Below are positions 18,970 through 39,821 of a DNA stretch of 64,000 nucleotides, piece by piece (within the stretch, counting starts at the first letter, position 1; every line of letters starts with the position of its first letter). The notes below the pieces were generated by a model. The model had not been told where the DNA came from. It searched no databases and saw nothing but the letters and a program-made list of their open reading frames with translations. A program made the position numbers and the translations under genes. The DNA is taken from contig NZ_QKTV01000004.1 in the NCBI RefSeq assembly GCF_003362725.1, positions 248,001-312,000 on the forward strand, given 5' to 3'. Origin of the DNA: Winogradskyella aurantiaca. Lineage in GTDB: Bacteria > Bacteroidota > Bacteroidia > Flavobacteriales > Flavobacteriaceae.

Positions 18970-21900
18970 TTCAATTTTGTCTCATTAACATTTACTACCA
19001 GATGCGTAATTTCACCACCTCTGTTAAAAATCAAATCACTTAAGTCGTTAGAAAGTGTTTGACCATGAATAATTGTGGTTTCATGATCTTTGGTCACAAT
19101 ATGGATCTGATCTGCATCACTTAGCTTGTACATTACTGGAATCTGACAATATGTAAAAGCCATCATCCCAGAACTCAATTGCAATTGCTTCTCTGAGCCA
19201 TTAACATCGATATAATTAAACGTTTTATCTTCTTGTATAAATTCATTTCGTCTCAGCAGGCACGGATTAAAGCTAATCTGGCCCTTAGAAACAAAAACAC
19301 CTAATTCTCCAATCCTTGAAAGGATATCCTCCTTAACTTGACCTGTCATGCCCGGTTGCTGAGCTCCTTTCGTAAAAGGTGTATGAGAATACGGGTCTGT
19401 AGGAAATGCACCATAAAGTGAGGCTGGTTTATGCACTCCTATGCCTTCATTGATTTCATAATAATGCTCCAATAATTTACCAACAACAACCTCTGAAGCC
19501 TCTTCTCTTATGGCTCTTAAACAACATTCTTGCACAGCTAGCAATAATTTGGACACCATGTGCCAGTAGATAGAGCCGAGTCCTTCATATCCATAAAAAG
19601 TTCCTGATCTTCCAGTAAATGCTTTGTGGTTAAATACTTTTTCAAAAATGCTGAGAATCAAATCTCTTTCTTTTACCGCCAATGGCTGGTAATCACTACC
19701 AGCTAGGGCATCAATGGCTATTTCAAGGTCTTTAGCGTTATTAAAATTTCCATTAAAATGGAAACCGCCAAAAACATCCTTTTTTATAATACTATGATTA
19801 TTATCTGATAATAAGGATTGTAATAATTGAGATGATAACACATCAGATTCTTCTACAGAATTACGCTCTAGGAACCCGGGTAACTGCTTGTTTGGGTAGA
19901 GCAAATAGCTATATTGATCTGGTCTGAAAAGAGCGCTTGCCTTTAAAGCATCTAACGCATCAAGTGCTTGCTGAGATGATAAATATCCTGAGCTCAAAAC
20001 GGCAACTTGTCCTTCGAGCATTTCTTCCAAATAATCAATTTCTACAGCAGTGTTATCTTTAGACGACATGAGGTTGTAGGCATGATACATGCCGTCCTCT
20101 CGTCTATTGGCCTCAATAGATTGGTTCAAATACTCCAATAATACCCCACTAAAGTTTCTAAGATCTTTTAATTCTATGGCCTCCTTAGAACCTGAAAAAT
20201 GGTTCTTATAGACGTCCATTCTATAGTTAGATGCACTCTCACCAAGACCCTTTAACACTAACATACGGTCTTCATCTGTGATGGTTCTATTCAAAACATC
20301 CTGATGACTGACTAAGGTTTGATGAATTTCTGAATAGAATTGTTTTAATTCTGTACTTATCATAACTGATGTTACTTCAACATCTGCTAATAAGTCCTTC
20401 ATGTATGCCATAAAGCGTCTCAAATAACAAAGGGTAACCATAGAGACCCCATTACCGACTAAAGCATTATTGGCATCATTCCATTCTGGGCGCTGGGTAT
20501 TCATCCATATACCTCCTTCTAAAATTAAGTTGGAGGTTTTAGCCAGAACCGTTGCTAGTATCTTTTCTATAAAGTTGACTCTATGAATATCTTTGGATTG
20601 ATTAACAAGAAGTGCACCATCAGCCCCAATACTATCTCTGTTGCTACGAATCTCTAAATCCAATTTATAGTCAAACTCAATAGTATCTTTTGGATTTTTA
20701 AGCAGATCTTCAAAAGACTTTATCTTATAAGGAACATTGGCATAAACAAAGATATCTTGACTAAAATAGCTGGTAAGTTTGTCCTTATGTCGGTCCTTAA
20801 TTATCTCCAAAAACTTCAACAAGTATATAATTTGATGATCACCCCAATAACCAATGTATGACCATGGATCATGCTCCTCAATAATCTCCCAGTCAAAACC
20901 ATCTTTCGTCACCCGGTAAGGATTGTATCCATCAAATGTTGTAGCATTTAAAAACTTGTGAATCATGCCCTCAACAAATTGAGGAAACGAATGCGCCAAA
21001 GCTTCCCAGTTTTGAAAAATATCACGCCAATTACCCTCATAATCCAAAACCTTAGACCCATCTATTTCATCCTTAGTATTTATAGAAAACTTATTCCATG
21101 GACGTGATGGATCTCCGTGGCGTCTACTAAATTTTAAAGGAAGGTATTCGAAGCATAATCTCTTAAAATCAGGATCGATAATAGCCTTTGTTTTTGATAA
21201 CAATTCCTGAAGTGTGAAGGTAATTGGGAGGTCAGATAAAAACGCTTTCTGATTTTCAAAAACCGTTTTGTTTGCTTTAGCGATATATCTTTTAAAGTCC
21301 CAGGATTCTATATAATAGTTAAAATCAAAAATACCCCCTCTCATTATATTGAAAAGTGTATTCGCATAGTGTCTGGTATCTCTCAATCTGTCTGCAGAGT
21401 ATTGTATTCCATCAGATGACGCTACTAGCTGTTTTAGACGCTCAGTACCTTGTTCGATCTCGTTTTTTATTTGATCCTCAATGGCATCATTGGACTTTAA
21501 AACTTGAATTAAACTGGCAATTGCCGACTGGTCCTTGTTAACATCGGCTCCAATCATCCAACTTTTAACCTGTTTATTAGATAAATTGAACGAAGACTGT
21601 ACTAAAAAAGCTCCTTTTTCTGCTTTTACATCGACTTCCAAATTAACTTCACCACTATGCCTAAATTGATCTACCTGAAGTGATGATAGCAAATAAGTAG
21701 GATTTGGCATCCCTCGATGCCATGCCACATTAGCCTTCAATGCCTCACTAGGTTCAGCCTTATCGACGATAATAGAACTTAGGGCAAATACCCCTAGTCC
21801 AACTGAAGGTACTAACTCACTGCGCTTATAGGCATCTACAAGATTGCTTCTTTGTACCTGAAGATTTTCTGAAACCCCATAAGGCATAATATTCTGAATT

Positions 21901-22442
21901 CCGTCAAGGATGCTTATGTCTTTGGAGATATCATCCAGATTGTTCAATTCCGCTTTTCGAATAAACCCAAAGGTTTCACTAGAATTCCACTCATAAACAA
22001 ATGCTAATCCAAGCGTTTGATTAACCTCTTCGAATCGAACTTTATTTCCAAAAACATTCTTATAAAGGTTTCTGGTGATGTCAAAGTTATTTTCGGTCCG
22101 TACTGAAAAGGGTTCCCATATCATTGTGGAATCATGATGACTTGTTCTTATCAGTGTCTTACTACCAGTGGTTTCAACAGCTTCTAAAATCTTGTCGTCA
22201 GTGTAGTATGGAAAGAAGGAATAATCACTGTTTTTACGACCAGCGGATAATGCCCCATTACTTCCTATAAACATCCAATGATTAGAATCACTTACGATAC
22301 TCATCAAGAATGTTCTCATTTCATCGACATGAGTAATTTTAAAAAAATCCTCACCGTTAATTTTAACTTTGGATAATTGACTCTCCATAGTAACATCTGT
22401 TATTGTTTCCTTGACATTGGTCAAAAGAATATCATTCATCAT
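18966..22442 (-). CDS. GH149-like beta-1,3-oligoglucan phosphorylase (clan GH-Q)
   Basis: A very large protein (1158 residues from this start) with no signal peptide, so cytoplasmic. An N-terminal beta-sandwich-like part is followed by an alpha/alpha-barrel region. RPEWNDANN (D about 656) matches the acid-bearing WND motif of inverting phosphorylases (GH94 and relatives), and EGNWRDIFQNWEA and RSGTFYGYEGLGS look like substrate and phosphate-site segments. Size and context fit GH149; GH161 is the main alternative, while GH94 is too short. The product would be glucose-1-phosphate from beta-1,3-glucan oligosaccharides. I chose the ATG at 22442 (or 22439): the longer frame needs a TTG inside a hairpin. 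Overlaps the GH17 gene by 4 bases. Confidence 0.75.
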   Translation of the reverse strand: MMNDILLTNVKETITDVTMESQLSKVKINGEDFFKITHVDEMRTFLMSIVSDSNHWMFIGSNGALSAGRKNSDYSFFPYYTDDKILEAVETTGSKTLIRTSHHDSTMIWEPFSVRTENNFDITRNLYKNVFGNKVRFEEVNQTLGLAFVYEWNSSETFGFIRKAELNNLDDISKDISILDGIQNIMPYGVSENLQVQRSNLVDAYKRSELVPSVGLGVFALSSIIVDKAEPSEALKANVAWHRGMPNPTYLLSSLQVDQFRHSGEVNLEVDVKAEKGAFLVQSSFNLSNKQVKSWMIGADVNKDQSAIASLIQVLKSNDAIEDQIKNEIEQGTERLKQLVASSDGIQYSADRLRDTRHYANTLFNIMRGGIFDFNYYIESWDFKRYIAKANKTVFENQKAFLSDLPITFTLQELLSKTKAIIDPDFKRLCFEYLPLKFSRRHGDPSRPWNKFSINTKDEIDGSKVLDYEGNWRDIFQNWEALAHSFPQFVEGMIHKFLNATTFDGYNPYRVTKDGFDWEIIEEHDPWSYIGYWGDHQIIYLLKFLEIIKDRHKDKLTSYFSQDIFVYANVPYKIKSFEDLLKNPKDTIEFDYKLDLEIRSNRDSIGADGALLVNQSKDIHRVNFIEKILATVLAKTSNLILEGGIWMNTQRPEWNDANNALVGNGVSMVTLCYLRRFMAYMKDLLADVEVTSVMISTELKQFYSEIHQTLVSHQDVLNRTITDEDRMLVLKGLGESASNYRMDVYKNHFSGSKEAIELKDLRNFSGVLLEYLNQSIEANRREDGMYHAYNLMSSKDNTAVEIDYLEEMLEGQVAVLSSGYLSSQQALDALDALKASALFRPDQYSYLLYPNKQLPGFLERNSVEESDVLSSQLLQSLLSDNNHSIIKKDVFGGFHFNGNFNNAKDLEIAIDALAGSDYQPLAVKERDLILSIFEKVFNHKAFTGRSGTFYGYEGLGSIYWHMVSKLLLAVQECCLRAIREEASEVVVGKLLEHYYEINEGIGVHKPASLYGAFPTDPYSHTPFTKGAQQPGMTGQVKEDILSRIGELGVFVSKGQISFNPCLLRRNEFIQEDKTFNYIDVNGSEKQLQLSSGMMAFTYCQIPVMYKLSDADQIHIVTKDHETTIIHGQTLSNDLSDLIFNRGGEITHLVVNVNETKLK

Positions 22443-22465
22443 TTTTAAAAAACTCAGTTTGGGAA

Positions 22466-22504
22466 AAAGGCCTATCAAGATCGAGAAGGACCCGTCCTGA
22501 TAGG
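22466..22504 (-). terminator. Hairpin with short T-run between GH16 and phosphorylase genes
   Basis: A 7-bp stem (22471-22477 with 22498-22504) encloses a loop containing a small GGAC/GTCC hairpin. On the minus strand it is followed by CCTTTTT. It is a weak terminator or an RNA processing or stabilising site inside the operon and could lower expression of the downstream genes relative to GH16. Confidence 0.4.
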
Positions 22505-22526: not shown

Positions 22527-23390
22527 TTAGTTATAGACGCGTACGTAATCTACTTCCATTGTTTGAGGAAAAACCGTGTCAGCTCCAACTGACCCAACAA
22601 ACGTACCTCCAACGGCTACATTTAGGATGATATAGAATTCATCATCAAATACCCACTCACCATCTACATCCTCAGGAGTTATTTGATTATAAAGAACATC
22701 ATCTATATAATAGTTGATAAAGTTTGGCCCCCATTCTACACCGAATACATGGAATCCAGTATCAAGCCTATCATCGACTAGATCATAAGATTTGGTCACC
22801 GCATTTCCTCCAGAATACCCTGGCCCATGAACACTTCCATGGGTAATCGTTGGTTCCTGCCCCCGCATTTCCATAACATCTATTTCTCCAATCTGTGGCC
22901 AAATCTCGGTTCCGCCTTGATCATCACCTAACATCCAGAACGCTGGCCATAAGCCTTGACCCCATGGTAATTTAATTCGTGCCTCAAATCTTCCGTACTG
23001 ACGTTGAAATTTATTCTTAGTTTGAATTCTCGCAGAGGTATATGGTGAGCCCTCAAATTGCTCACGTCTAGCGATAATTTTTAGCACACCATCTTCTACG
23101 ATGACATTCTCCGGTCTATCTGTATAGTATTGTTGTTCATTGTTACCCCAACCCGGGATACCTTCTGCAGCTCCATTTCCTATATCAAAATTCCACAACT
23201 CTGAATCCGGGGAACCATTAGCCCCAAAACCTTCATCTAAAACAAGATTTGTATAATGGTTAATTACTTGTTGGTTCTCGTCTGTATTACATCCAACGGT
23301 CAAAAAGACCAATCCAATAGCCGCAATCAAGGCCATATTGAATTTCTTCATTTTCATAAATTTCATTTTTCTTTTCATTGCTTTAATCAT
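22527..23390 (-). CDS. GH16-family laminarinase (endo-beta-1,3-glucanase) lipoprotein
   Basis: A 287-residue GH16 enzyme. GEIDVMEMRG contains nucleophile E169, D171 and acid/base E174; WPAFWMLGDD and the closing MEVDYVRVYN are also typical of laminarinases. The lipobox is LTVGC (Cys 34) followed by NTDEN; acidic residues at this place often mark surface export in flavobacteria, so it probably cuts laminarin at the surface. Several Met codons lie in the N-terminus: the ATG at 23390 overlaps the previous gene by 8 bases, while MKKFNMALIAAIG (23351) gives a more normal signal peptide. No extra binding module is attached; the locus supplies these as separate proteins. Confidence 0.93.
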   Translation of the reverse strand: MIKAMKRKMKFMKMKKFNMALIAAIGLVFLTVGCNTDENQQVINHYTNLVLDEGFGANGSPDSELWNFDIGNGAAEGIPGWGNNEQQYYTDRPENVIVEDGVLKIIARREQFEGSPYTSARIQTKNKFQRQYGRFEARIKLPWGQGLWPAFWMLGDDQGGTEIWPQIGEIDVMEMRGQEPTITHGSVHGPGYSGGNAVTKSYDLVDDRLDTGFHVFGVEWGPNFINYYIDDVLYNQITPEDVDGEWVFDDEFYIILNVAVGGTFVGSVGADTVFPQTMEVDYVRVYN

Positions 23391-25317
23391 TTAAGACTTG
23401 TATATCATCAAAATAATAAGTGCTTCCATCCCCGGCTACCCCATCTATGAACTCGAAGAAGGTGATAAATCGTTGATAATCCAATTCAGGATTATATACT
23501 GGACCGAAATCAAACTCCAATTCCACCCATTCATTAGCCACCGGAACATTAGCGTCAACGAAGACCTGATTGCCTCCACCAGCAGTTTCTAATGCGAACC
23601 TAACAGGAATATTTGCCTTGGGGGACCATACTTTTACTCTTAATTTCTGTGAACTGCTAAAGTCAATTGGCGCATCTAGATCCAAGAAGGTACCAGCAAA
23701 GAACTGCGCCCCATTGGTTTTAGTTGTCCTCATTATTGTGGCCGTTGGATTAAGACCTGACTGATCAGGATTCGCTTCAATAGCCGATTCGGCACCTTCG
23801 AATGCTACAAAATTATAGGTCACATTTGTAGACTCAAATCCTAGAGGAAGCTCTGCTTGTGTGGCGGCTGAATCATCAACATTTGGTGTTGGGTCCAATA
23901 CTTCCTGATAATAATAGATATTATCTGTATATATGTTTGTAATAGTAGCATCAGAAATAAAGAAAAATAAACCAACCGCATCCCTTTCTGTCAATCCGCT
24001 AAAATTGCCAAGTGGAATATCAAACCCTTTCCATTCATTAGTTGCTAATTCAGAAGCAGTAATAGTGTAATCCCCTGATAACTCATCATCGGTACCAACA
24101 TCATTAAGTATTTGTAATCTAATAAAATCACTTGGCTCAATTTCCTCCTGAACATTGATATCAACATGAACATGAGTCATTTGATTCGTATTTATTGGAG
24201 CAACATTTAAGAATGTTCCAATACCAACGAAGTTCAGCTCGGTATAATTAATGACTTGTTCTCCATTGATTGTCAGTGGAGGCGCCCCACCTTGAGTAGT
24301 CTGAAATGGGGCAAAGAACCCATTGTAATAGTCTACAGGTACATTAGTATAGGCATCACTAAAAACTGAAATAACATTATCCGGATTCCGATCTGGCGCT
24401 GGAGCATGAACAAATTCACCCAGCGATTCCAAAGTTAGGGAACCCTCTGCTTCAAGCCCATTGATCGTTGCCGTTATAACTGTTGTACCAGTTCCTGAAA
24501 TACTTATAGTTCCGTTAGAATCAACATTAGCCACTGAAGTATTTGAAGATGAAAATTCATAATAAGCAGGGAACGGAAAAACAGTAATATCCTGACCATT
24601 CGCCAGATTAAATGTTTCCTCCAAACCATCGACCTGTCTGCTCGAGCCAATAAATGTTTGTTCAATCAAATCCTGACCTCTAAATATTTTTGGTCTAGGT
24701 TGTGCAATTGTACCCAATTTCTCAAACTGAATGTCATCAAACCAGATGGTATATCCTGCCCCACCATTGTCTCGCGTTCCACCTGAGTACCAAAACATAC
24801 CTCTCTCTTGTGTTAGCTTGGATGCGTCCGGTAAAGGGATTGTATATTTAGTCCATTGTGTACTAACAGATAATGGACCTGCATTCACTTGATAGGTGTT
24901 AGAATTAAAATCCTGACCAAAACCAACCTCATCAAAAATAACTCCTCGAGAAGCCCTAGCATAAAAGGTCAGTGCGTCAAACCCACTCAAATCTCGACCA
25001 GCACCATCTATTCTTAAAATAGCCCCAGCATAGGTCCCTGAGGCATTATCTGGATTTGGCACATCAACTCGATATGATGCAGAACTCTCAAAGCCTTCAC
25101 TTTGATCTCTTGAAAAGGCTTCAAAATAGGAATCAGCAAATGGAAGGTAAAAGTCTTCACCCATACCAACAAAATTATCTATAAACACACGTCCCTCTCT
25201 AGAAAAACTAGCAGGTACGGCTTGATCTGAAATTTCACGCTCACAAGACAATAACATTAACAATGCCATTGCTAAAAAACCAACTTTAAGTCCTGATATC
25301 TTTACTATTTCTTTCAT
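23383..25317 (-). CDS. Multidomain surface glycan-binding lipoprotein
   Basis: 644 residues, lipobox MLLSC (Cys about 25) followed by EREISD, suggesting surface exposure. I see four parts: a CBM-like beta-sandwich (about 40-205) ending IWFDDIQFEK; a bacterial Ig-like (BIG2-type) domain around TSVANVDSNGTISISGTG; a module starting RNPDNVISVFSDAYTN and ending YTDNIYYYQE; and a last jelly-roll module ending TYYFDDIQVLND. No catalytic motif is visible. The third module resembles ones in the proteins at 8524 and 29702. The gene lies between the barrel-fused hydrolase (11 bases) and GH16 (8-base overlap). Best read as a SusE/F-like glucan-binding protein. Confidence 0.8.
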   Translation of the reverse strand: MKEIVKISGLKVGFLAMALLMLLSCEREISDQAVPASFSREGRVFIDNFVGMGEDFYLPFADSYFEAFSRDQSEGFESSASYRVDVPNPDNASGTYAGAILRIDGAGRDLSGFDALTFYARASRGVIFDEVGFGQDFNSNTYQVNAGPLSVSTQWTKYTIPLPDASKLTQERGMFWYSGGTRDNGGAGYTIWFDDIQFEKLGTIAQPRPKIFRGQDLIEQTFIGSSRQVDGLEETFNLANGQDITVFPFPAYYEFSSSNTSVANVDSNGTISISGTGTTVITATINGLEAEGSLTLESLGEFVHAPAPDRNPDNVISVFSDAYTNVPVDYYNGFFAPFQTTQGGAPPLTINGEQVINYTELNFVGIGTFLNVAPINTNQMTHVHVDINVQEEIEPSDFIRLQILNDVGTDDELSGDYTITASELATNEWKGFDIPLGNFSGLTERDAVGLFFFISDATITNIYTDNIYYYQEVLDPTPNVDDSAATQAELPLGFESTNVTYNFVAFEGAESAIEANPDQSGLNPTATIMRTTKTNGAQFFAGTFLDLDAPIDFSSSQKLRVKVWSPKANIPVRFALETAGGGNQVFVDANVPVANEWVELEFDFGPVYNPELDYQRFITFFEFIDGVAGDGSTYYFDDIQVLND

Positions 25318-25328: not shown

Positions 25329-28300
25329 TTATCGTCCAATATTTATGTGAATGTAGGTTCTAATTTCCCACTCCGAACCATTTGGAAATCCAACCGGGCT
25401 AAGTGGTGGTACTGGAGGAAATGTATCTGGTGGTACTGCCGTTGGTAAGTATCTATTAGAAAATTCATCCAATGATCTCCATGTCCCTCTAAGTCCAATA
25501 GTGGTACTTGGCAAAATAAACCAGTCTGGCTTCCCAATTGAAGTGGACAAATCTAACATAAGTTGCAGGGGAAATGTTAAGTTGAAATCTCTATGGTAAT
25601 CGTAAGGTCCCCAATCGTTGACTTTAACATGGGCATTTAAACGCATTTGTTTGTAGAGCGATTCTACATTAAATCCAAATCGGTTAATAGTTCTTGGGCT
25701 ATCACCGTTGGCCTGTCCATTACCAAAATATAAGTTTCCAATAATTCCTAGGTCTGGGCTTAGTTTAGATACCATCCTAGAATGTACTTCCCACAAATCT
25801 TGAGCTGGAGTTGAATTAGCAAAAGCAAAAATGGTACGATCGGCAAGGAAACCGATATGTGCATCCATTGTGGTAGGTAAATGTCTGTAAACGAAACCAA
25901 GATTCATTGCGAATTTTGCATCCTCAGAACGACTGTTATCCCATTGATACATCCATGTCCCAGGGGTTGGATCAAATGTCAAAAGCAATTCAGCTGCCGT
26001 TGTTTCGCGATTACCTCTCACAGAAAAGGGATCATCCAAAATATTACGCAATCTTCCCGGTGGGTTAATCCCCTGAGGCATAGCAGCTACTAAGGGCTTT
26101 TGATACATGAAATTTGGAGCTATTTGAAAATTATCAAAAGAATAGGTAAAACCAGTTAAAACGTGTGTTTGGTTACCACTACCTGTATCTTTTAGCTTCC
26201 ATCCTGTATAAGTTAAAGTTGCATCGGCCCCTCCATTGGCAACTAATCCATAAATACCACCTTGTGCATACCAATTGAATTTTCCACCTTCATAGGTTAT
26301 TTTGGCTTTACCTCCCCAATTGTCCTTCGACTGGATACGGTCTTCAACCACATTGCCGCTAGCATCAACATCCTGATAGCTAATTCCATTAACTGGGCTA
26401 CCAGACCAAATCCCACCAAGGGTTATTCCTACCTTGCCAAATTCTCTATTAACTGCCACAGTTGCCCGTTCTTGAGGCCAGGGTGGAATAATACCAGAAC
26501 GTGTTTGATTTGGATCTAACAATCGTCTTCCATTTTCATCAAGACGAACTCTTGTATCTACGTCTCTATTGTAGATAGCAGCAATATCAAATTTCCCATG
26601 TTTCTTATGGTACTTTAAAAACCAGGTTGGATTGGCACCCCACCATAATTGCGGACCATAGGCAAATTTAAAGCCATCTAATGCCCGTTTTCCGGTTAAC
26701 TCTGCTCCATTAATTTCACCCCCATAAATATCGAGATTTGGACCATAATTAGCCTCTGGATACAAACCAAAAAAGTCTCCTTCATATCCCCAGTGATAGT
26801 GACCCGTTCTGTAGAAGTATTTAAGATTAAAGTCTTTAGCATCCCACTCGAGGTCTGCTTGATAAATATTAACATTATTAACATCCTGGAGGGTCACTTC
26901 TCCTTGATCGGTCTCAATGGTAACAATACGTGCTCTATTTTCGTAAAATATCTCATCAATGGGATTTTGAGCCACATTATTGATGAAGTTAACCACCATA
27001 TTGGCCCGTAGATTTTCAGCAGGGTTTGCTTCAACCCCAACAAAAAAGGACTGCATATGATCAAATCCTAATTGATTTGGAAATACATCTCTATTAGGAT
27101 CAGGGTTATCTGGCGTTGTGATAAGCGAACCACCAGTATTAAATGTAGTAAGCTTAGCCGTAAACTGACTAAGCCTAATTAATTTTGAGTCGTTGCCTTC
27201 TAACGCGGCCTTATCGCCGCGTGCCTTCAAAACCGCGTCCATGAGATTAATATTCTTAAAATAATTCTCAATGAACTCATTGGTCACTCCATCTTCATAA
27301 GGATTTAATTTATGTGCTTCCTGCAAAGCATAATATGCCGCTCTGGGAAAAAGTTCATAAAGACCTCTGGAATTCGTTGGCCCTTTGGCACAAACCCCAA
27401 ACCACTCTTCATTCATATTGTTTTCGCCTGGTACTAAATCTATTGGATAACCACCATTGGCCCATGACGCATTATTATCATGTCTATCTGCATTTTCGCG
27501 GTCATCAAATCCAAATTTCCACCAGCCGTCGCTAAATTGAAAGGTAAAACCACCTATGGAATTTCCTGCTTTTCCTAATCCAGCAGCATTCTGGTATATT
27601 TCCTTCCAATTTCCCACCATGTAGTAGGCCTGTGCTTTTTGATCTTCTTTGTTCTCTTTTGCATTGTAAGCATCAGCCCCAAACTCAGTAAACATAAGTG
27701 GCATATCCAATTTTTCTTTTACCACATCAAACATGTCACCAAATGAGACCCCACGGTAAGTATTAGTTCCATAAATATCGACGTCTGGACACTCCTCAGC
27801 TATAATATCTATAAAAAGAACATCCCCGTTACATATAGCTACGGGATGTGAGTTGTCAATTGCCTTCATGGCCACTGCTGCCTCATTCATTAATTTGTAC
27901 ATAGGGCGACCACGTTTCTCACCTATAAAAGCTTTTTCCTCTTCATCATCAGGAAAATCTTCGGTTTCGGCACCCTGCCAGAATAAACCGTAGTTATTCT
28001 CATTTCCTAAAAGGTACATCAATAATCCAGGTGTATCTTTATAGGCTAAGGCCAACTCCTTCATGTCGTTCATTAACAAATCCATTGTTTTCTGATCGTC
28101 GTAAATAGTCACAGGAGTCCAAACACCATCAATAGTAAGGCCGTATCTACCAAACGAATGATTTAACATGGTGTATATGCCGTATTCCTCATAAATGTAT
28201 TTGATCCATCTTGCTGGTACTCCAGTGTATTGGCGAACTACATTAACTCCCATATTTTTTAATAAGGACATTTCTGTATCCAGACCTGCTTTAATAACAT

Positions 28301-28505
28301 CGTCAGATTTTTTCCAAAACTGAGCATCAACTGTATTGGTTCCAATAGGGATATAATCCCAATTCATACCATTAATCATAAAGTCTTTCCCATCTACTAC
28401 AAGTCTATGGCCACTAGGGTCAGATACCACTTTAACCATATTCTTCTGTGCACTTGCAACAGTGACAAAAACTAATAGGGGGAGTATTAGAAGAAGTTTT
28501 TTCAT
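25329..28505 (-). CDS. Clan GH-A glycoside hydrolase fused to a predicted outer-membrane beta-barrel
   Basis: 1058 residues with a cleavable signal peptide (to about residue 19, VASAQ). Residues about 30-400 form a GH2/GH5-like TIM barrel: MINGMNWDYIPIG, LLMYLLGNENNYG (acid/base E169), MFTEFGADAYN (nucleophile E274) and FSDGWWKFG. The following roughly 620 residues have no hydrolase motif. They show alternating aromatic and polar strands (for example FNLKYFYRTGHYHWGY, LNAHVKVNDWGPYDY, EIRTYIHINIGR) separated by Gly/Asn/Asp turns, as in outer-membrane barrels. This is an inferred fold. Such a layout would hold the enzyme directly in the outer membrane without lipid. First gene after a 120-base gap, so it may have its own promoter. 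Linkage specificity unknown. Confidence 0.72.
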   Translation of the reverse strand: MKKLLLILPLLVFVTVASAQKNMVKVVSDPSGHRLVVDGKDFMINGMNWDYIPIGTNTVDAQFWKKSDDVIKAGLDTEMSLLKNMGVNVVRQYTGVPARWIKYIYEEYGIYTMLNHSFGRYGLTIDGVWTPVTIYDDQKTMDLLMNDMKELALAYKDTPGLLMYLLGNENNYGLFWQGAETEDFPDDEEEKAFIGEKRGRPMYKLMNEAAVAMKAIDNSHPVAICNGDVLFIDIIAEECPDVDIYGTNTYRGVSFGDMFDVVKEKLDMPLMFTEFGADAYNAKENKEDQKAQAYYMVGNWKEIYQNAAGLGKAGNSIGGFTFQFSDGWWKFGFDDRENADRHDNNASWANGGYPIDLVPGENNMNEEWFGVCAKGPTNSRGLYELFPRAAYYALQEAHKLNPYEDGVTNEFIENYFKNINLMDAVLKARGDKAALEGNDSKLIRLSQFTAKLTTFNTGGSLITTPDNPDPNRDVFPNQLGFDHMQSFFVGVEANPAENLRANMVVNFINNVAQNPIDEIFYENRARIVTIETDQGEVTLQDVNNVNIYQADLEWDAKDFNLKYFYRTGHYHWGYEGDFFGLYPEANYGPNLDIYGGEINGAELTGKRALDGFKFAYGPQLWWGANPTWFLKYHKKHGKFDIAAIYNRDVDTRVRLDENGRRLLDPNQTRSGIIPPWPQERATVAVNREFGKVGITLGGIWSGSPVNGISYQDVDASGNVVEDRIQSKDNWGGKAKITYEGGKFNWYAQGGIYGLVANGGADATLTYTGWKLKDTGSGNQTHVLTGFTYSFDNFQIAPNFMYQKPLVAAMPQGINPPGRLRNILDDPFSVRGNRETTAAELLLTFDPTPGTWMYQWDNSRSEDAKFAMNLGFVYRHLPTTMDAHIGFLADRTIFAFANSTPAQDLWEVHSRMVSKLSPDLGIIGNLYFGNGQANGDSPRTINRFGFNVESLYKQMRLNAHVKVNDWGPYDYHRDFNLTFPLQLMLDLSTSIGKPDWFILPSTTIGLRGTWRSLDEFSNRYLPTAVPPDTFPPVPPLSPVGFPNGSEWEIRTYIHINIGR

Positions 28506-28625: not shown

Positions 28626-29663
28626 TTAATCACAAGATGCCGGTGTTGTTGAAAATCTGAAATACCAGGCCAAATTACCATCGATTCCATCATCGCAACG
28701 CACCCATAATTCATCATTTGAAATTTCAAGAATTTCATATTCAGAGGCTGTAACGTAATAGCTCATGAAATTATCTCCGCTAAATAGAAGTCTTGTTTCT
28801 CTAGGAACCAATGTCGCATCTTCAGGTAATTGACTCCAATCAATTGCTGAAGGTGATAAGCCCACTATGCTTGTGCCAGAGGTATCAAACTCGTAACATC
28901 CTTCATCTCCACCACCAACAATGCCAGTATGGCCACCATTGATAAACGTCTCACCGTTATTGTTGAGTACATAGGTTAGTACGTTACCATCTGGTAATAA
29001 AGTGAATGTTAATTCATCTGTATAAAAGCAATGCAGATCTTCACCCGGCTCGCCACAGTATGTTCCCGGGGGAGCCGCGAAAAAGGCAGGGAAATAAAAC
29101 TGAGAGGGCTGTCCATTAATCTCAATATCAAATGCCTCAGAAGGTCCAACACCAAGGTGTCCATTAGCGGCCGAAGCAACGTACCATGTCTTTGAGTATG
29201 GCTCGTCCACATCAATAATATCATTGCCATCTTCATCTTGGGTTAGAGGTGCTCCTGTTAAAAATGAACGGGCCTCAACATCATCGAAAGCACTAAATAC
29301 AGTAACCTCAAAAGTTTCGGAGGATGTTATGCCTCCAGTCCCTGATGCAATAGCTGTAACAACATAGGTGTTAACACCCTGAACCACGTATCTATGGCTA
29401 ATTTCGCCATTATCTGCTAATTGCATGCCAGAACCATCACCAAATGTGAATCTATAAGCCAATGCATTGTCTGCTGATAATTCAAAATTGACCACACCAG
29501 AACCATCACCGAATGGGTTCTCGTCATCCTGACCCACAATTTGAACGTCCAATTGTAAATTGGTAGGTGTTGTTACAGGTCCAAAAGTTTTGTCTTCATC
29601 TTGACAACCCGTGACTAGAATTAACAAAAATAAACTACTTAATATTATATTTAATTTTCTCAT
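28626..29663 (-). CDS. PKD-domain surface lipoprotein
   Basis: 345 residues, lipobox LVTGC (Cys 20) followed by QDEDK, an acidic pattern that suggests surface export. A PKD-like domain covers about 35-125 (YRFTFGDGSG, SHRYVVQGVNTYVVTA). The C-terminal about 215 residues are a different domain, rich in aromatics and Gly, with YSKTWYVASAANGHLG and ending in CD. The start of that domain resembles a lipocalin-like or GH16-type sandwich but has no catalytic motif. Third binding-type gene after susD; likely a glucan-binding protein. Upstream gene 38 bases away. Confidence 0.75.
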   Translation of the reverse strand: MRKLNIILSSLFLLILVTGCQDEDKTFGPVTTPTNLQLDVQIVGQDDENPFGDGSGVVNFELSADNALAYRFTFGDGSGMQLADNGEISHRYVVQGVNTYVVTAIASGTGGITSSETFEVTVFSAFDDVEARSFLTGAPLTQDEDGNDIIDVDEPYSKTWYVASAANGHLGVGPSEAFDIEINGQPSQFYFPAFFAAPPGTYCGEPGEDLHCFYTDELTFTLLPDGNVLTYVLNNNGETFINGGHTGIVGGGDEGCYEFDTSGTSIVGLSPSAIDWSQLPEDATLVPRETRLLFSGDNFMSYYVTASEYEILEISNDELWVRCDDGIDGNLAWYFRFSTTPASCD

Positions 29664-29701: not shown

Positions 29702-31666
29702 TTAGTTGATTGACAATACGACATTATCAATATTAACCATCCCTACTTCGGCCCCAACATCAAAAAGGACGCGTGCATCTGGTGCACCAAACCCATCGGC
29801 TGGGAGAGTAAGAGTATAATTGGTAACTGTAGGTGTAATATTTACTGGTTCACTATTATTGGAGAAATCACCACCACTTAATCCAATACCTGCAATAATG
29901 GACCTATTGACATCGGACCAGGCATCAAACGTTAGGGTATAGGTTTCACCTTGAATGATTTCTAGCTTTTGGCTAACATTCACTGAAAATGGTTGACCTG
30001 CAGACGTCACATCAACTGAATAATACGTGTTTCCACCAACTGTAACTACGGGAGCCGGGGCAGTATCATCCACACCAACAATCCAAGGGTCTGCTCCTGC
30101 TTCAAAATCTCCGTTAACTAAGAGATTATCTACAAAAACCTTAAGTGACACATTATCAATATTTACTACTCCAACTTCAGCACCAACATCGAATAATACT
30201 CTAGCGTCTGGCGCTCCAAAACCGCCAGCGGTCAAGGTTAAACTATAGTTTGTGACATTAGTTGTGATATTAACAGGTTCACTGTTATTAGAAAAATCAC
30301 CACCACTTAATCCAATTCCTGCGATAATTGATCGATCAACATTGGACCAGGCGTCAAACGTTAGCACGTAGGTTTCACCCTCGATAATTTCCAATTTCTG
30401 ACTAACATTTACTGAGAAAGGCTGACCAGCTGATGTTACGTCAACTGAGTAGTAGGTATTACCCCCAACAGTCACCACTGGAGCCGGGGCATTGTCATCC
30501 ACTCCAACAATCCAAGGATCAGCACCCAATTCAAAATCACCATTTTCTAAAAGACCATCATCAAATGGAGGTCCTGTTGGTTCTCTTGAGAAATATAGGT
30601 TATCAATAAAAATAGTTGCTCGATTCCCAAGAGCATCAAATAGTAATTGGGTTACTTGAGACCGATCCATATCATAATCATCAAGTGAGAAAACCACACT
30701 TACCCATTCATTTTGAACCACTTCATCAACAGCAATAATATCTTCTTCAACTGGATCTACTGCTGTATTTACAATTTTAAATCCTAAGGTAGTAGCATCT
30801 GTAGTCCAGTAATCAAAATGTACAAAATCCATTCCCGTTAGGTCTGTAGGATTTCCATAGTCTGTCACAATACCTGTAAATGCCATTTCTGTGTACTTAA
30901 TGGTATTATTACCATCGATTTGAATTTCTTCAAATCCAGAATCGGACCATTCCGTTGGGAATTCGTTAGTGGTTATTGGTGTATAAGAGTCACTATATAT
31001 AGCAATAACATCATCAGGTTGGGCAGTTGGATTAGGTGCTGCTTCCAAAGGTTCATTAATTTCAATAACCTCAAAGTTCTCTTCATAAACTGTGGTCTCT
31101 TCAGCAGCACTGTAAGCTGTTACTACAACATTATAGAACCCTCCTGCAGCATACTCATAGATGATTTCATCCCCCATATTCGCACTTTGAATATCGGACC
31201 CATCACCAAAATCAACTTCGTAAAAAATTCCAAAATCAGCTGTTGCGCTTACTCTAACGGTCTTGGATACTCCTGGAATGTTCTCTAAAACCACCTCTAA
31301 ATTCTGTGGTGGAATAAAGGCCACTACCAATTCGCGTTCTAATCGAGTTGTCAGTCCATTTATACCGGTTGCCGTAAGAACCACCGTATAAACACCCTCC
31401 TCATAAACATGAAGGGCTGTATTTCCTGTGTTGAGGGTTTCCATTTCAGAACCATCACCAAAATCAATATCAAATTTGGCCGCGTTTTCTGCGCTAGGGT
31501 TAATAAATACCAATCCTGTATTATCAGGTACTACCCTGAATAAAACATCTACATTAGATGGTGCTTCTACGCTATTAATGAAATCAGTAGAACGGTCTTC
31601 GCTGTCGCATCCTGCCAGTAGGATTAAACCTAAAAAGGCAATAAAATATGTTATTCTTTTCATCAT
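29702..31666 (-). CDS. PKD and CBM-like surface glycan-binding lipoprotein with duplicated C-terminal module
   Basis: 654 residues, lipobox LLAGC (Cys 19) followed by DSEDRS, suggesting surface exposure. Two PKD-like domains come first (FDIDFGDGSEM and YEVDFGDGSDI). A module starting AQPDDVIAIYSDSYTP and ending FIDNLYFSRE resembles those at 8524 and 23383. Two nearly identical 140-residue CBM4/jelly-roll-like modules (372-511 and 515-654) close the protein, both starting NGDFE.GADPWIVG and ending VNIDNV. No catalytic residues are seen. Directly after susD (7 bases), the usual place of SusE-like binding proteins. Confidence 0.85.
   Translation of the reverse strand: MMKRITYFIAFLGLILLAGCDSEDRSTDFINSVEAPSNVDVLFRVVPDNTGLVFINPSAENAAKFDIDFGDGSEMETLNTGNTALHVYEEGVYTVVLTATGINGLTTRLERELVVAFIPPQNLEVVLENIPGVSKTVRVSATADFGIFYEVDFGDGSDIQSANMGDEIIYEYAAGGFYNVVVTAYSAAEETTVYEENFEVIEINEPLEAAPNPTAQPDDVIAIYSDSYTPITTNEFPTEWSDSGFEEIQIDGNNTIKYTEMAFTGIVTDYGNPTDLTGMDFVHFDYWTTDATTLGFKIVNTAVDPVEEDIIAVDEVVQNEWVSVVFSLDDYDMDRSQVTQLLFDALGNRATIFIDNLYFSREPTGPPFDDGLLENGDFELGADPWIVGVDDNAPAPVVTVGGNTYYSVDVTSAGQPFSVNVSQKLEIIEGETYVLTFDAWSNVDRSIIAGIGLSGGDFSNNSEPVNITTNVTNYSLTLTAGGFGAPDARVLFDVGAEVGVVNIDNVSLKVFVDNLLVNGDFEAGADPWIVGVDDTAPAPVVTVGGNTYYSVDVTSAGQPFSVNVSQKLEIIQGETYTLTFDAWSDVNRSIIAGIGLSGGDFSNNSEPVNITPTVTNYTLTLPADGFGAPDARVLFDVGAEVGMVNIDNVVLSIN
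29705..30124 (-). repeat. Second copy of a duplicated 420-bp CBM-like module
   Basis: Codes for residues 515-654 of the binding lipoprotein. It differs from the copy at 30134-30553 at only about 16 of 140 residues by eye, so the duplication is recent or kept uniform by gene conversion. Confidence 0.9.
30134..30553 (-). repeat. First copy of a duplicated 420-bp CBM-like module
   Basis: Codes for residues 372-511 of the same lipoprotein. It is separated from the second copy by three codons (VDN). Confidence 0.9.
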
Positions 31667-31673: not shown

Positions 31674-33137
31674 TTAATATCCTGGATTCTGTTCCCAATT
31701 ATTGCCTGCTAATTCAATTTCTATTCTTGGAATTGGAAAAAGCTCATTCTTACCTGGTGTAAACCCTGGAATGGCATTAGCTGCTCTTCCAGTTCTCACC
31801 AAATCAAAGAAATGATGGCCTTCCCCTACCAATTCTACACGACGTTCTCGATAGATAGCGTTCGTTAAAGCGTTACCTACTACATTAAGATTGCTATCCG
31901 AATTTCCAAATGCGCGTTCTCTCACACGGTTTAAATATTCCAACGCTCTAGAATCACTAATACCACCTCTATTTAAAGCCTCAGCAGCTAAGAGTAAAAC
32001 CTCAGCAAAACGTATTGCGCGGTAGTTATTAGGATTAGTAAGGTTGGCATCTGGTGTATTTAAATCACCTTCTTGTCTTGCAATATATTTTCTGTTAAAA
32101 TATCCTGTGTGCTCATGACCAGTACTAAACGTTGCTCCAGTTTCTGCTGCCCACGCATCAATATTTAAAATTGCTATATCGCGTCTGTTGTCCCCAAGCT
32201 CGAAGGCATCATAGGCGTTTTGGGTAGGTACATTAAAACTAAAACCAGATTCAAATAATGGTCCTGAATAATTTCTGATTCCATTAAAGCCTACAGCAAT
32301 ATTTCCTTCACTACATTGTAGACAACCAAATCCTGCGCCTTCCTCATCTGTATATTGAACTTCAAAAACAGATTCTACATTGTTTTCATTATCATTTTCG
32401 AACATTGTACTGTAATCGGAAAGTAATTGGTAAGGCCCATTATTAATAAGGTCCTCCAATACAGTAGCAGCTTCCGAAAATTTCTCTTGATAGATATATA
32501 CCTTTCCTAATAATGCCTGAGCAGAGCCTTTAGTAGCCCGACCCACATCCGTTTGGACATAAGGCATGTTCGCTTCAGCATAAATTAGATCAGCCTCAAT
32601 TTGCGCATACACTTCGGCTTTTGGGTTTCGAACAAGATCAAATTGTTCACCAAAGACAACACGCTTATCGACTACAAGAGGCACATCACCAAAGAATTTA
32701 ACCAATTCGAAATAATAATAAGCTCTCAAAAAACGCGTCTGTGCAATGACATTCTCTTTACCCTCAAAATCAGTCTTATCTTGAAACTCCATGATAAAGT
32801 TAGCCCGGTTAACACCAGCGAACATCCATCCCCATATATCTCGTAACTGCTGATTCTCATCCGTATGAATCATGTCATCAATTTCCTGAATACCTGGAGT
32901 ATCATTAGCACTTTCACCACCGGCGAGCGTATTATTAGAGGCGATATCGCCTAACATTACATTGAGATAGGTAGTTTGTAATAGATCATATGCTCCAATT
33001 AATGCATTCTGGTAATCCTGCTCCGAGTTAAAGAAGGTTTCTGAACTTGGAAATTGTGGATCAACATCTACAAAACTGTCGCTACAAGAGGCAATCAAAA
33101 ACATTGCCGCGATTAGATATGTTATTCTCGTCTTCAT
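31674..33137 (-). CDS. susD: SusD/RagB-family glycan-binding lipoprotein
   Basis: 487 residues, lipobox LIASC (Cys 18) followed by SDSFVD. The N-terminus (VDPQFPSSETFFNSEQDYQNALIGAYD) and C-terminus (RERRVELVGEGHHFFDLVRTGRA, FPIPRIEIE) are SusD-like, with TPR-type helices between (GSAQALLGKVYIYQEKF). SusD forms the lid over SusC and captures the glycan. It is 6 bases after susC, so the pair forms the core of the locus. Ends about 7 bases before the first binding lipoprotein gene. Confidence 0.95.
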   Translation of the reverse strand: MKTRITYLIAAMFLIASCSDSFVDVDPQFPSSETFFNSEQDYQNALIGAYDLLQTTYLNVMLGDIASNNTLAGGESANDTPGIQEIDDMIHTDENQQLRDIWGWMFAGVNRANFIMEFQDKTDFEGKENVIAQTRFLRAYYYFELVKFFGDVPLVVDKRVVFGEQFDLVRNPKAEVYAQIEADLIYAEANMPYVQTDVGRATKGSAQALLGKVYIYQEKFSEAATVLEDLINNGPYQLLSDYSTMFENDNENNVESVFEVQYTDEEGAGFGCLQCSEGNIAVGFNGIRNYSGPLFESGFSFNVPTQNAYDAFELGDNRRDIAILNIDAWAAETGATFSTGHEHTGYFNRKYIARQEGDLNTPDANLTNPNNYRAIRFAEVLLLAAEALNRGGISDSRALEYLNRVRERAFGNSDSNLNVVGNALTNAIYRERRVELVGEGHHFFDLVRTGRAANAIPGFTPGKNELFPIPRIEIELAGNNWEQNPGY

Positions 33138-33143: not shown

Positions 33144-36100
33144 TTAAAATTTTAAGTTAACACCTAACAACCATTGACGGGGATTTGGATAAAATCCATT
33201 GTCAATTCCGGCGCCTATAGCACCACCACTACTTGTTGTAGGGTCATATCCTTGATATTTTGTTAATGTAAATAGATTTTGAACGGACACATAAAATCTC
33301 AATTTTGAGATTGTAGAATCCTCTAAGGAAGAATCAGATAAACTGTATCCTAACTGTAAATTCTGCATTCTTACAAATGAACCATCTTCAACGAAGAAAT
33401 CAGAGAACAAATTGTTGGAATTGGCTCCAATTGTAGCCCTAGGAAACGAATTAGAGGTACCTTCTCCTGTCCAACGGTCTAAATAATAGACCGATCTATT
33501 TGTATTTGGCTGAAAACGCTCGTAGTTTCTAACAATATCGTTACCGATTTGGGAAAATACGTAACCAATTAAATCAAAATTCTTGAATTCAAAATTAAAA
33601 TTGAATCCCATAGTTAAATCAGGAATAGGATCCCCTACATACGTTCTATCATTGTCATCGATAACGCCGTCATTATTTAGATCCACGAATATGAGATCTC
33701 CTGGTTTAACATTATCATTTATAGTTACAGAGTTATCCACCTGCTCTTGATTTTGGTATATTCCTGCAGTTCTAAATCCTCTGAAATAACCTATAGGTTG
33801 ACCAACTTCCATTCTAGCAATTGGGTCTTGCCCTACGTTGAAGTTCCCGGCGGCTATAAAATCTCCCTCAGCATTTACACGAGTTACCTCATTGCTAATG
33901 GTGGTCAAATTATAACGTAATGACATTTTAAAGTCATCATTAAAATCTTCGGAATAACCAATAGCAAATTCAAAACCTTGGTTCTCTATAGTCCCCGCAT
34001 TAATTATTGGTGGTCCTGCTCCTGGAGCACTTGCGCCTAGAGTTCCACTAACTTGTGGTTGAAATAATAAGTCTACAGTTCTACGGATGTAATAATCCAT
34101 AGTTATATCAAACTTGTTTTGGAAAAATCTTGTGTCCAGACCAACGTCAAAGGTTTGCTGTTGCTCCCATCTTATATCTGGATTAGCAACCAATCCCGTA
34201 GCTTGTCCATTAACAATTTGACCATTTAATACATAGGTCGCTTCTCCGTCTAAATTGGATGAAAATGCAAAAGCAGCAATTCTGTCATTACCAAGTATAC
34301 CATATGATGCTCTCAATTTCATGAAGTCGAAGAAATTACTGTCGCTCATAAAAGATTCGTCTGACATCACCCAACCTGCTGAGAACGATGGGAAGTATCC
34401 AAAGCGATTGTTAGGACCAAAGGCCGTTGAACCATCACGTCTAATCAAAGCAGAGAACAAGTACTTACCTTTATAATCATACTGGACTCTTGCAAAATAA
34501 GAGAGGAGTCTGCTATCAAAAAATGGATCTTCGGGTAAATTTCTAAATCGACGCTGAACCTCAGCAGCATTTTCAATGCTAGCATTAGCCACAGTGTTCC
34601 CAGGTATATCAAATCCTATTAAACCGCTGAAAAATCCTTGGGTTCTAAATACAGACATACCCAATAGTACCTTGAGGTTATGCGTATCGTCAAAAATACG
34701 TTCGTACTTTAAGAAAGCATCAAAAGTATAATCCTTAAAAATATCCTTGAAATCAGACAATTCGTTCCGATCAACATTAAAGACCTTTCCACTACCATAA
34801 TTGCGCTCTGGTCTAAAGACCTTATTGGTCACTTCAGAATAATTAAACTGAATGTTAGTTTGAGCTGTAAAGTAATCCAAGAAGTTATACTGCAATCCAC
34901 CTACACCTGAGATTCTATTGGTTTGAGTCCGGTTATAGGTATCATTAATTTGCGCTAGTGGATTGATTACCTCATTCCCTAAGCCCTCAGCAAGAGTGTA
35001 TGCTCCATTCTCCTGTCTAACAGGAAGTGTTGGATCCATATTTAAGGCATTATACAAGACAGACCCAATAGCGTTTTCACTGAGATTATTTTTATTAGTA
35101 TAGTTCCAAATTATCCCAGCATTGGCTTTAAGGTTCTCAAGAATGTCATAACTATAATTTAAACTTTGCGTCAAACGAGTGAAGTTGGATTTACTTCCTC
35201 CAACAATACCGTCTTGAGTAAAGAATGAGGTTCCATAGGCATAAGTCGACTTTTCACCACCACCACGCATATTTAAGGATGTATTTGCGATTGGTGCTGT
35301 TTGAAACACCTCGCGTTGCCAATTGGTTCCTTGACCAAGACCTGACACATCTGGAAATCTTGGTGGTTGACCATCAGCTGCGTAGGCTTCATTTGTATAC
35401 AGAGCGTACTCTGTGGCATTTAGAACCGGTATCTCTCTGGTTGTTTCCTGCACTCCACCCCAAACATTAATGTCCACTTGAAGCGGCATGCTTTTTCTAC
35501 CAGTTTTTGTTTTTATAAGAATAACCCCGTTAGCGGCTCTCACACCATAGATACCAGCTGTTGCATCTTTCAATACATTGACACTTTCAATATCTGCTGG
35601 GTTAAGAACACTCAGGTCTTCGATAACATTCCCATCAACTAAGATTAGCGGTCTATTATCTCCATTGGTTGAAATACCACGAATATTGATGGTTAATCCT
35701 GCACCCGGAGAACCAGATGTGGAGGTAATATTTACACCAGTGACTTGACCTTGCAGTGCTTGTTCGACTCGCGTTGGTTTTAACTCATCTATTGTTTCAC
35801 TGGACACTACTGAAACTGCCCCGGTAACTTCTTTCTTGGTTTGAGTTCCATAACCTATGACAACTATTTCGTTTAGTGCCTCCGCATCTTCTTCCAAAAC
35901 AATATCCAATCGATCAGCATTCAAGACTGTTACCTCCTTGGTCCTGAAACCTAAATACGATATCACTAAAGTCGAATTAACAGAAACATCTTCTAACACA
36001 TAATTACCATCAAAATCGGTTGAGGTACCCTTAGTAGTGTTTTTTACAATAATGTTTACTCCTGGAAGCGGTTGTCCAGTAGTGGCATCTGTTACTGTAC

Positions 36101-39234: not shown

Positions 39235-39762
39235 TCAATTATTAACAAAAGGAGAAAAATCATCAATTGCCTTTGCATCAAAAAAGTGGGTCTTATCAAT
39301 TGTATCCCCTTCTGATGAATCGTAGTCCATGATTATTTTCCATTGTGCATATTGTTTTTTAAATAAAACATGAAATTGCCCATAAAAATAGCTTTGGTTT
39401 CCCTCTTTGTCAGTAATACTCAATTGATAGACCCCTCGCTCACTGGCTATATTAGCATTGTTGATACGTTCAAAAAAACGCAATTCAATATGGCGTGTTT
39501 CGTTACGTGATGTAATGGCCTGAAAGTTGGACTTGTAACTGTTAATGTAAGCATCATAATCACTTATTCTCGCACCACCAGAAATACGGACTAGATCCTC
39601 AGCATGAATTTTAGCCATGTACGTATAATCTAATGAATCAAAAGCCCTGTAAAAATCAGCCCATACTAAGTTGATCTCATCTAATACTTCAGAAGACGTG
39701 TTTTGTCCGTTAGCAAAAGAAAGGAAACTAATGCACCAAATTATGAGTAGTTGTTTTTTCAT
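39235..39762 (-). CDS. Exported DUF4440/SnoaL-like protein
   Basis: 175 residues with a signal peptide (to about residue 19, SFANG). The rest looks like a single NTF2/SnoaL-like cone fold, as in DUF4440 proteins: VWADFYRAFDSLDYTYMAKIHAEDLVRISGG at the start and WKIIMDYDSSEG near the end. Function unknown; no catalytic claim can be made. I chose MKKQLLIIWC as start because the frame upstream runs into the tRNA terminator. The regulator gene follows 21 bases downstream, so they may be co-transcribed. Confidence 0.75.
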   Translation of the reverse strand: MKKQLLIIWCISFLSFANGQNTSSEVLDEINLVWADFYRAFDSLDYTYMAKIHAEDLVRISGGARISDYDAYINSYKSNFQAITSRNETRHIELRFFERINNANIASERGVYQLSITDKEGNQSYFYGQFHVLFKKQYAQWKIIMDYDSSEGDTIDKTHFFDAKAIDDFSPFVNN

Positions 39763-39791
39763 AAAAGCTATTTGGTACTGAAGATAAAACA

Positions 39792-39821
39792 AAAAAGCCA
39801 GAACATAGGTTCTGGCTTTTT
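39792..39821 (-). terminator. Terminator after the tRNA-Gly/tRNA-Leu unit
   Basis: GC-rich 8-bp stem (39797-39804 with 39809-39816), loop ATAG, extended by A/T pairs; a T-run follows on the minus strand. Being symmetric it could work in both directions. Confidence 0.85.

Follow-up and report, generated by a model that had tools for sequence, protein, structure and literature searches.

Does a glycosidase that is built onto an outer-membrane barrel use the barrel as a tether, or as an entrance for the sugar that it cuts? The question is raised by a gene on the minus strand (25329..28505) of a 64,000-nucleotide stretch of Winogradskyella aurantiaca DNA (contig NZ_QKTV01000004.1, positions 248,001 to 312,000; hereafter the window). 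A first-pass annotation, made from the letters of the window, had described in one frame a signal peptide, a clan GH-A glycoside hydrolase (GH) barrel with catalytic E169 and E274 and a strand-rich C-terminal part, apparently an outer-membrane beta barrel, and had suggested that the protein either anchors itself or opens its own pore. The description proved real and, on balance, we lean towards the second idea: the product may be a porin-hydrolase for beta-1,3-glucan (laminarin) that acts with the lipoprotein encoded just downstream.

A glycosidase and a predicted outer-membrane barrel in one protein

The gene, which is present as a single copy in its own genome, is an open reading frame with an ATG start that encodes 1058 residues; the plus strand of the same interval, read in a single frame, is riddled with stops. 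Residues 1-19 (MKKLLLILPLLVFVTVASA, followed by Q; 28449..28505) form a type I signal peptide as judged by eye, and a lipobox pattern of our own was matched by only 4 of 101 fused homologues. The predicted glycosidase domain (residues 20-405; 27291..28448), a helical linker (406-442; 27180..27290) and a putative barrel of about 24 strands and about 615 residues (443-1058; 25332..27179) follow on the minus strand. In the full-length AlphaFold2 model, a TIM barrel is succeeded by helices at 409-436 and by long strands from 443 to 1056; the linker was delimited by the DSSP assignment, and barrel-less homologues stop hereabouts.

That the C-terminal part is an outer-membrane barrel is well supported by prediction. 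Because structural alignment of the full-length model with VIA-align gave TIM-barrel enzymes among the 50 matches listed, the barrel had to be folded alone, and AlphaFold2 modelling of residues 436-1058 with 57 sequences returned a barrel and not a globular fold (pLDDT 70.7, pTM 0.70). Among the 50 Foldseek matches listed from the PDB, all were outer-membrane barrels, including BtuB, ZnuD, chitoporin, PfeA, AlgE, OccK, LptD and ushers. With VIA-align, ushers (PapC 7lhh: Z 14.6, root-mean-square deviation (rmsd) 4.7, 369 residues aligned), AlgE (4afk: Z 14.6, rmsd 5.0, 274 aligned) and OccK porins were tied at Z of about 14, the ushers spanning the whole model, and SusC (5t3r) reached Z 13.7 with rmsd 6.3 over 389 residues. 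Ushers have 24 strands and TonB receptors 22; 24 strands were assigned from the model, a count that may be off since one of them (612-618) is short.

The residue pattern of the strands points in the same direction. With strand limits taken from the model, the in/out alternation of hydropathy was 2.54 units, compared with 1.39 +/- 0.21 after shuffling within strands (maximum 2.13 in 2000 shuffles) and 1.06 +/- 0.16 in random stretches of the GH domain, and the outward positions were hydrophobic beyond all 2000 shuffles. A signal peptide, amphipathic antiparallel strands, closure and fold matches to solved barrels, by which an outer-membrane beta barrel is recognised, are thus all present in the prediction. 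Sequence searches with 42 members gave chance-level matches only to the C-terminal half in Pfam (best E 0.017) and sub-threshold TonB-receptor matches in NCBIfam (best E 0.0031), and no solved sequence relative of the barrel was found up to E 1. The C-terminal Arg, correctly pointed out in the first-pass annotation as departing from the usual aromatic residue, is no oddity of the window protein: the last residue of the 101 fused homologues is K in 78, N in 12, I in 4, R in 3 and another non-aromatic residue in 4, so that a non-aromatic end is usual in the family. The copy from Bacteroides finegoldii ends in F, as do 14 of 19 SusC frames from fusion loci taken for comparison.

The model also suggests on which side of the membrane the enzyme lies. 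Of the 11 turns on the side of the C-terminus, eight have 2-3 residues (the others 6, 10 and 20), and nine of the 12 loops on the opposite side have 20-35 (the others 7, 7 and 11). The short-turn side of outer-membrane barrels is the periplasmic side, and with an even strand number both barrel ends lie on it; hence we infer that the linker and the glycosidase are in the periplasm and not on the cell surface. The construction first described, an enzyme on an outer-membrane barrel, thus appears to hold, but the enzyme is predicted to be periplasmic rather than surface-held.

Conservation, scored on 42 sequences that are 53-76% identical to the window protein, was higher for inward than for outward residues (mean entropy 0.87 vs 1.24, p 4e-5). 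Four outer loops, including TGHYHWGYEGDFFGLYPEANYGPN, QLWWGAN and GPYDYHRDFNL, are highly conserved (entropy 0.16-0.56) and rich in W, Y, H, D and E, and the remaining loops are variable. Such a pattern is expected for a ligand-binding channel, although it is not proof of one; together with the size of the barrel, it makes a channel or receptor likelier than a bare anchor. Of the two ideas in the first-pass annotation, a pore of the protein's own is the better, albeit not a proven one.

The enzyme half

The fusion enzyme is predicted to be a retaining glycosidase of clan GH-A, with a (beta/alpha)8 barrel, glutamates on strands 4 and 7 and the NE motif, to which several GH families are equally near. 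E169 (27999..28001, minus strand; putative acid/base, in GNEN) and E274 (27684..27686, minus strand; putative nucleophile, in TEFG, which aligns with TEWG of BuGH158) are invariant across 57 aligned full-length homologues, and the same residues (there numbered E149 and E254) likewise do not vary among 23 GH domains, some of them from barrel-less homologues. The alignments comprised 57 of 81 rows (A1 and A3), 42 (A2) and 23 (A4).

Family assignment is less sharp. The Pfam model of the GH2 TIM barrel (PF02836, cut-off 21 bits) scored 20.7 bits with the whole protein and 24.5 with the domain alone, matching 21 of 23 family members, and GH72 matched 6 of 23. A profile of the 23 domains found BuGH158 (6pal) as its best solved sequence (E 2.4e-7, summed from three weak pieces), followed by GH158(Pro) (9oro, E 2.6e-4) and then by GH2 galactosidases and LaGH157. 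In structural alignments, GH157 (9g4n: Z 27.6, rmsd 2.7, 303 aligned), human beta-glucuronidase (3hn3: Z 27.4, rmsd 2.9, 293 aligned) and GH158 (9oro: Z 26.8, rmsd 2.9, 282 aligned) were close together, so that GH157, GH158 and GH2 are tied in fold, with just 18-21% identity to GH157 and GH158. Membership in GH2 was rejected: the TIM-barrel match is borderline and stands alone, without the GH2 sugar-binding or Ig-like domain, in a domain that starts at residue 20, directly after the signal peptide. The endo-beta-1,3-glucanases of GH158 and GH157 (BuGH158, GH158(Pro) and LaGH157) share with the fusion the clan GH-A TIM barrel, similar sequence patterns around both glutamates and a beta-1,3-glucan context, but only in the fusion does an outer-membrane barrel follow the enzyme. 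Because of the neighbouring genes and these distant kin, the substrate is most likely beta-1,3-glucan.

Distribution of the fusion and of its barrel-less relatives

The two-part layout recurs in other glucan loci. In total, 578 relatives were found in genome contigs, of which the best 80 cover residues 29 to at least 1053 with 77-65% identity; being the best of 578, these 80 loci lean toward Flavobacteriaceae. Among 395 Bacteroidota genomes, 54 had some match, and those without the fusion had the GH part, fragments or weak matches. The barrel profile (A2) matched 35 of the 395, in 33 of them within frames of at least 1028 residues that carry this GH. One of these 33 (G204) also has a short piece on another contig, and the remaining two are a remnant (G119) and a broken copy (G235). 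An intact barrel without the enzyme, or joined to another domain, was not found with this profile among the 395 genomes. In a second draw of genomes within the class, 17 of the 18 that have the GH have it in fused form.

A homologue also occurs in a record labelled as a plasmid of Bacteroides finegoldii (NZ_OY725931.1), a gut species, under the NCBI name 'glycoside hydrolase family 2 TIM barrel-domain containing protein'. Its gene run comprises a DUF6377 protein, the fusion, a lipoprotein, GH16, a fimbrillin, a hypothetical protein and GH3, and neither SusC nor SusD was found in the 27 kb seen. The record also encodes rpsA and valine-tRNA ligase, and it may thus be a chromosomal piece.

The first-pass annotation had held that a globular C-terminal fold or soluble periplasmic homologues would tell against a barrel; neither of these outcomes was encountered. 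Full-length homologues keep the barrel, but barrel-less homologues occur in similar loci, some of them with a lipobox, and are scattered among fused forms on a tree. In that tree of 64 GH domains (54 fused and 10 barrel-less), at least six changes of state are needed, compared with a mean of 9.5 for shuffled labels, which suggests that the states are clustered yet of more than one origin. The tree was quick and unrooted and used 64 rows of 131 distinct domains: identical domains were removed, as was the G235 copy, which is broken, and loci L002-L081 were thinned to about one in six. Being unrooted, the tree does not prove the direction of barrel gain or loss. At least one loss is indicated by G119, where a barrel-less copy (L117) is followed by a stop and then by a short remnant of the barrel start. 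The broken copy of the fusion gene in G235 (L169), like this remnant, is a trace of barrel decay.

Operon partners and predicted cell locations

The usual gene order is regulator, enzyme-barrel fusion, lipoprotein of the carbohydrate-binding module (CBM) type, GH16, GH149, GH17, GH30 and MFS transporter; the regulator gene immediately precedes the fusion, in the same orientation, in 51 of 101 fused loci. The CBM-type lipoprotein is the next gene after 98 of the 101 fused genes, after none of 10 barrel-less genes (seven of which are followed by GH149), and after all 12 fused genes in further loci. Barrel and lipoprotein thus appear to be gained or lost together, which is the pattern of an interacting pair.

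The adjacent SusC and SusD genes by which a Sus-type polysaccharide utilization locus (PUL) is recognised are present in the window and missing from most scorable fused loci. Loci were scored if they had enough upstream sequence; the flanks were too short in 15 fused and 4 barrel-less loci, which were dropped (the 11 barrel-less loci before dropping include the broken G235 copy). In 68 of the 86 scorable fused loci neither SusC nor SusD was found, 15 have both, and in three (L005, L058 and L072) the finding was partial, the pair lying slightly farther off. No SusC or SusD was found on the same strand within 8-10 kb upstream of the fusion in the 68 loci; among the named operon genes, only the regulator lay upstream in 45 of them and none in 20. 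Neither was found in the stretch examined of the 12 further loci, which were picked by hand, SusD-free genomes included, two with short upstream stretches (5.7 and 4.6 kb).

At the genome level, nine of 48 genomes lacked a match to PF07980, one of several SusD-type Pfam models that a divergent SusD could escape, and eight of the nine carry the fused gene. SusC was not found over the cut-off in five of these (G726, G404, G066 and G255, which are 99-100% complete, and G543, at 80%) and was found above it in three others (G144, G711 and G051). Both the 48 genomes and the 11 searched for SusC were hand-picked, not random. In G066, G051 and G255, the locus runs from the fusion and the lipoprotein, through other genes, to GH16 and MFS.

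Surface-exposed lipoproteins of Bacteroidota tend to have acidic residues just after the lipid cysteine. With a pattern of our own rather than SignalP (at least two acidic residues at +2 to +6 in frames with a lipobox), this signal was found in 88 of 97 partner-type lipoproteins, 74 of 84 GH16, 17 of 20 SusD and 26 of 27 and 12 of 12 PKD proteins, and in 5 of 57 GH17, 10 of 31 GH30 and one of five barrel-less GH homologues. The counts suggest that GH16 and the partner lipoprotein are outside and that GH17 and the barrel-less relatives are inside, the last of which is in line with the topology proposed for the fused form.

Possible mechanism and alternative explanations

The porin-hydrolase reading takes its start from computed results, namely the fold class, the family distribution, the gene neighbourhood, the co-occurrence of the lipoprotein and the lack of SusC/D nearby. 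From these we infer the membrane topology, an open pore, the direction of transport, the substrate, the hand-over to the enzyme and the cell locations of the other enzymes. In such a system, a surface GH16 would release glucan fragments, and the CBM-type lipoprotein, together with a wide barrel of about 24 strands that has no recognisable plug, would capture the fragments and admit them. The clan GH-A domain, tethered by its short helical linker at the periplasmic mouth, might then cut or transglycosylate the incoming chain, and cutting at the inner mouth would make entry one-way. The products would go to GH17 and GH30 in the periplasm, then to the MFS carrier of the inner membrane and to GH149 in the cytoplasm. 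In most of the loci seen, the fusion and the lipoprotein take the place that SusC/SusD would have; in the window they accompany such a pair.

Several observations weigh against this proposal. The confidence of the models is moderate (barrel pLDDT 70.7; full-length pTM 0.51, so that the model does not fix where the enzyme sits with respect to the barrel), and the low Foldseek TM-scores (about 0.2-0.4) and large rmsd (about 12-20 A) leave strand number and lumen unsure. When pooled, the outer loops are no more conserved than the strands (mean entropy 1.05 vs 1.06). The substrate is deduced from the genes nearby and from remote relatives of the enzyme, among which GH157, GH158 and GH2 match its fold equally well. 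The window and 15 of the 86 scorable fused loci carry SusC and SusD too, the count would overlook a pair located farther than about 10 kb upstream, and other TonB-receptor-like matches were found in all eleven genomes searched for SusC. GH149 was not found in the fetched stretch of the G066, G051 and G255 loci. Small laminari-oligosaccharides might cross general porins. The tree was quick, and three of its ten barrel-less members (L114, L115 and L167) are on long, unsure branches. Furthermore, four of the seven scorable barrel-less loci also lack SusC/D; the absence is thus not special to the fused form, and we do not accept it as proof of import. Among these SusC/D-less barrel-less loci, L112, L114 and L116 have no GH16 match in the stretch covered and L115 has GH16 on the opposite strand, and those with GH16 on the same strand (L111, L118 and L167) all have SusC/D. 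The numbers are small, but they are in line with a need for outer-membrane entry beside surface enzymes.

The alternative that survives best, which we nevertheless consider unlikely, is that the barrel is closed, transports nothing and merely holds a glucanase on the periplasmic side of the outer membrane, near SusC/D or general porins. SusC/D does accompany the fusion in 15 of 86 scorable loci, and the enzyme works without a barrel, given that GH149, GH17, MFS and the like still surround its barrel-less homologues. Of the 12 barrel-less frames, which include two fragments of a single broken gene, 5 carry a lipobox, which would be a swap of one anchor for another. Yet a 24-strand barrel far exceeds what an anchor needs, its inward residues and four outer loops are highly conserved, the lipoprotein gene follows the fused form only, and no SusC/D was found in 68 of the 86 scorable loci.

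Export of the enzyme by its own barrel, in the manner of type V secretion and giving a surface-displayed glucanase, seems improbable. The order of signal peptide, enzyme, helix (predicted at 409-436) and C-terminal barrel is that of classical autotransporters, but those have 12 strands, no autotransporter was among the matches listed by Foldseek (50) and VIA-align, which is weak evidence rather than proof, and the acidic surface signal is present in just one of five lipobox-bearing barrel-less homologues, unlike GH16 and SusD. Least probable is that the barrel and its lipoprotein sense laminarin or form a platform on which SusC/D and GH16 assemble, the GH domain being regulatory or without catalytic activity. 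The regulator gene found immediately upstream, in the same orientation, in 51 of 101 fused loci might suggest such a role, but both catalytic glutamates are invariant, and the unit is retained by genomes that have neither a PF07980 match nor SusC over the cut-off.

Relation to known systems and to earlier reports

Among the known systems nearest to the fusion are the SusC/SusD importers of Bacteroidota, with which it shares adjacent genes for an outer-membrane barrel and a lipoprotein at the head of a glycan operon, as well as a structural match to SusC 5t3r. It differs from them in its attached enzyme, in having about 24 rather than 22 strands and in a partner that is not SusD by Pfam; a carboxypeptidase-like or plug domain was not found. 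A SusC-like TonB receptor was rejected as an assignment, the full protein having no match to the PF07715 plug at E 0.1 or to TIGR04056 at E 1. Chitoporin, maltoporin, AlgE and OccK are likewise outer-membrane barrels for sugars or small acids among the structural matches, but they have 16-18 strands and no enzyme. Type V secretion proteins, i.e., autotransporters and the patatin-type PlpD, also join an N-terminal enzyme and a C-terminal barrel in one chain, with a different strand number and in contrast to the probably periplasmic enzyme of the fusion; assignment to type Va fails on about 24 strands in the model versus a 12-strand translocator.

The fusion gene is currently annotated as a GH2 enzyme. 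A homologous cluster in Muricauda has been described with one gene called GH2 (PMC13188888), which we take to belong to the fusion family because of the gene order and because two genomes listed there recur among our loci (L010, matched by its strain, and L021, matched by its contig name); in that text, 'porin' and 'outer membrane' are absent and 'barrel' is used only for TIM or alpha/alpha barrels. In another report (PMC10108472), unclassified 'GH0' genes are found in expressed laminarin PULs, among the top 10% of expressed genes in one genome, and one GH0-bearing laminarin PUL (NS4) lacks susCD; that GH0 is the fusion family is a guess. Surveys of this type define PULs by susC or susCD, so that fusion-led operons would be filed as carbohydrate-active enzyme clusters or broken up. 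No description of an enzyme-barrel fusion of such kind was found in the literature searched, which includes the available text of PMC6246565, PMC11345257, PMC9723794 and PMC6298971 and outside which most subscription papers and all preprints lie.

There is a real chance that the fusion belongs with the outer-membrane glycan importers as a separate class. A fuller version of this idea, which we put forward tentatively and which may well prove wrong, is a SusCD-independent and possibly TonB-independent class of glucan importers with a pore of about 24 strands, its own periplasmic hydrolase and a surface lipoprotein, in which hydrolysis at the inner mouth and not TonB energy would drive uptake and which would be widespread in Bacteroidota, including Bacteroides. 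The fusion occurs in many marine bacteria and at least one Bacteroides species, often in the place of the standard sugar importer, which suggests an overlooked route of uptake for an algal storage sugar. If it is an importer, it would add a second dedicated route, in which passage and cutting are physically linked, and with it one could test directly whether a wide pore in the outer membrane can be made selective and unidirectional without TonB.

Genes of the window operon

In the window, the fusion gene stands sixth in a laminarin-type operon whose genes are all on the minus strand. Upstream of it are genes for a regulator with propeller, Y_Y_Y and LuxR-type helix-turn-helix domains (36415..39213; Pfam), a SusC-family TonB-dependent transporter (33144..36176; Pfam and TIGR04056), a SusD-family lipoprotein (31674..33137; Pfam) and two PKD lipoproteins, one of 654 residues with CBM_4_9 (29702..31666; Pfam) and one of 345 residues (28626..29663; Pfam, below the cut-off). 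A gap of 120 bases precedes the fusion gene, and 11 bases separate it from the gene of its constant neighbour, the CBM-type lipoprotein of 644 residues (23383..25317; weak Big_2/CBM_4_9 matches), which overlaps the gene of a lipoprotein GH16 glucanase (22527..23390; Pfam, with the signal seen in relatives). GH149 beta-1,3-glucan phosphorylase (18966..22478; NCBIfam NF058639 and PDB 6hq6) overlaps in turn with a lipoprotein GH17 glucanase, whose relatives mostly lack the acidic signal (17689..18969; Pfam), and a GH30 enzyme (16170..17669; Pfam) and an MFS/GPH-type sugar transporter (14577..16142; Pfam, and NCBIfam below its cut-offs) follow.

Some further features of these genes and of related loci were observed. 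For the GH149 gene, the TTG start in the list appears to have been placed too far upstream, since the 6hq6 match begins at residue 22 and internal ATG codons lie just ahead. The gene of a small DUF4440/SnoaL-like protein (39235-39792, minus strand) adjoins that of the regulator on its upstream side. In five related loci (L112, L113, L114, L117 and L183), regulators that by eye look like the LacI type stand beside the locus in place of the propeller/LuxR type. In the barrel-less locus L111 of G304 (4839-9167), longer proteins encoded upstream of the free GH, one of which has a GH16 domain, have apparently absorbed parts of the CBM lipoprotein. Finally, the 654-residue PKD lipoprotein of the window has two nearly identical C-terminal CBM_4_9 repeats as judged by eye (about 375-510 and 514-654), which look like a recent duplication.

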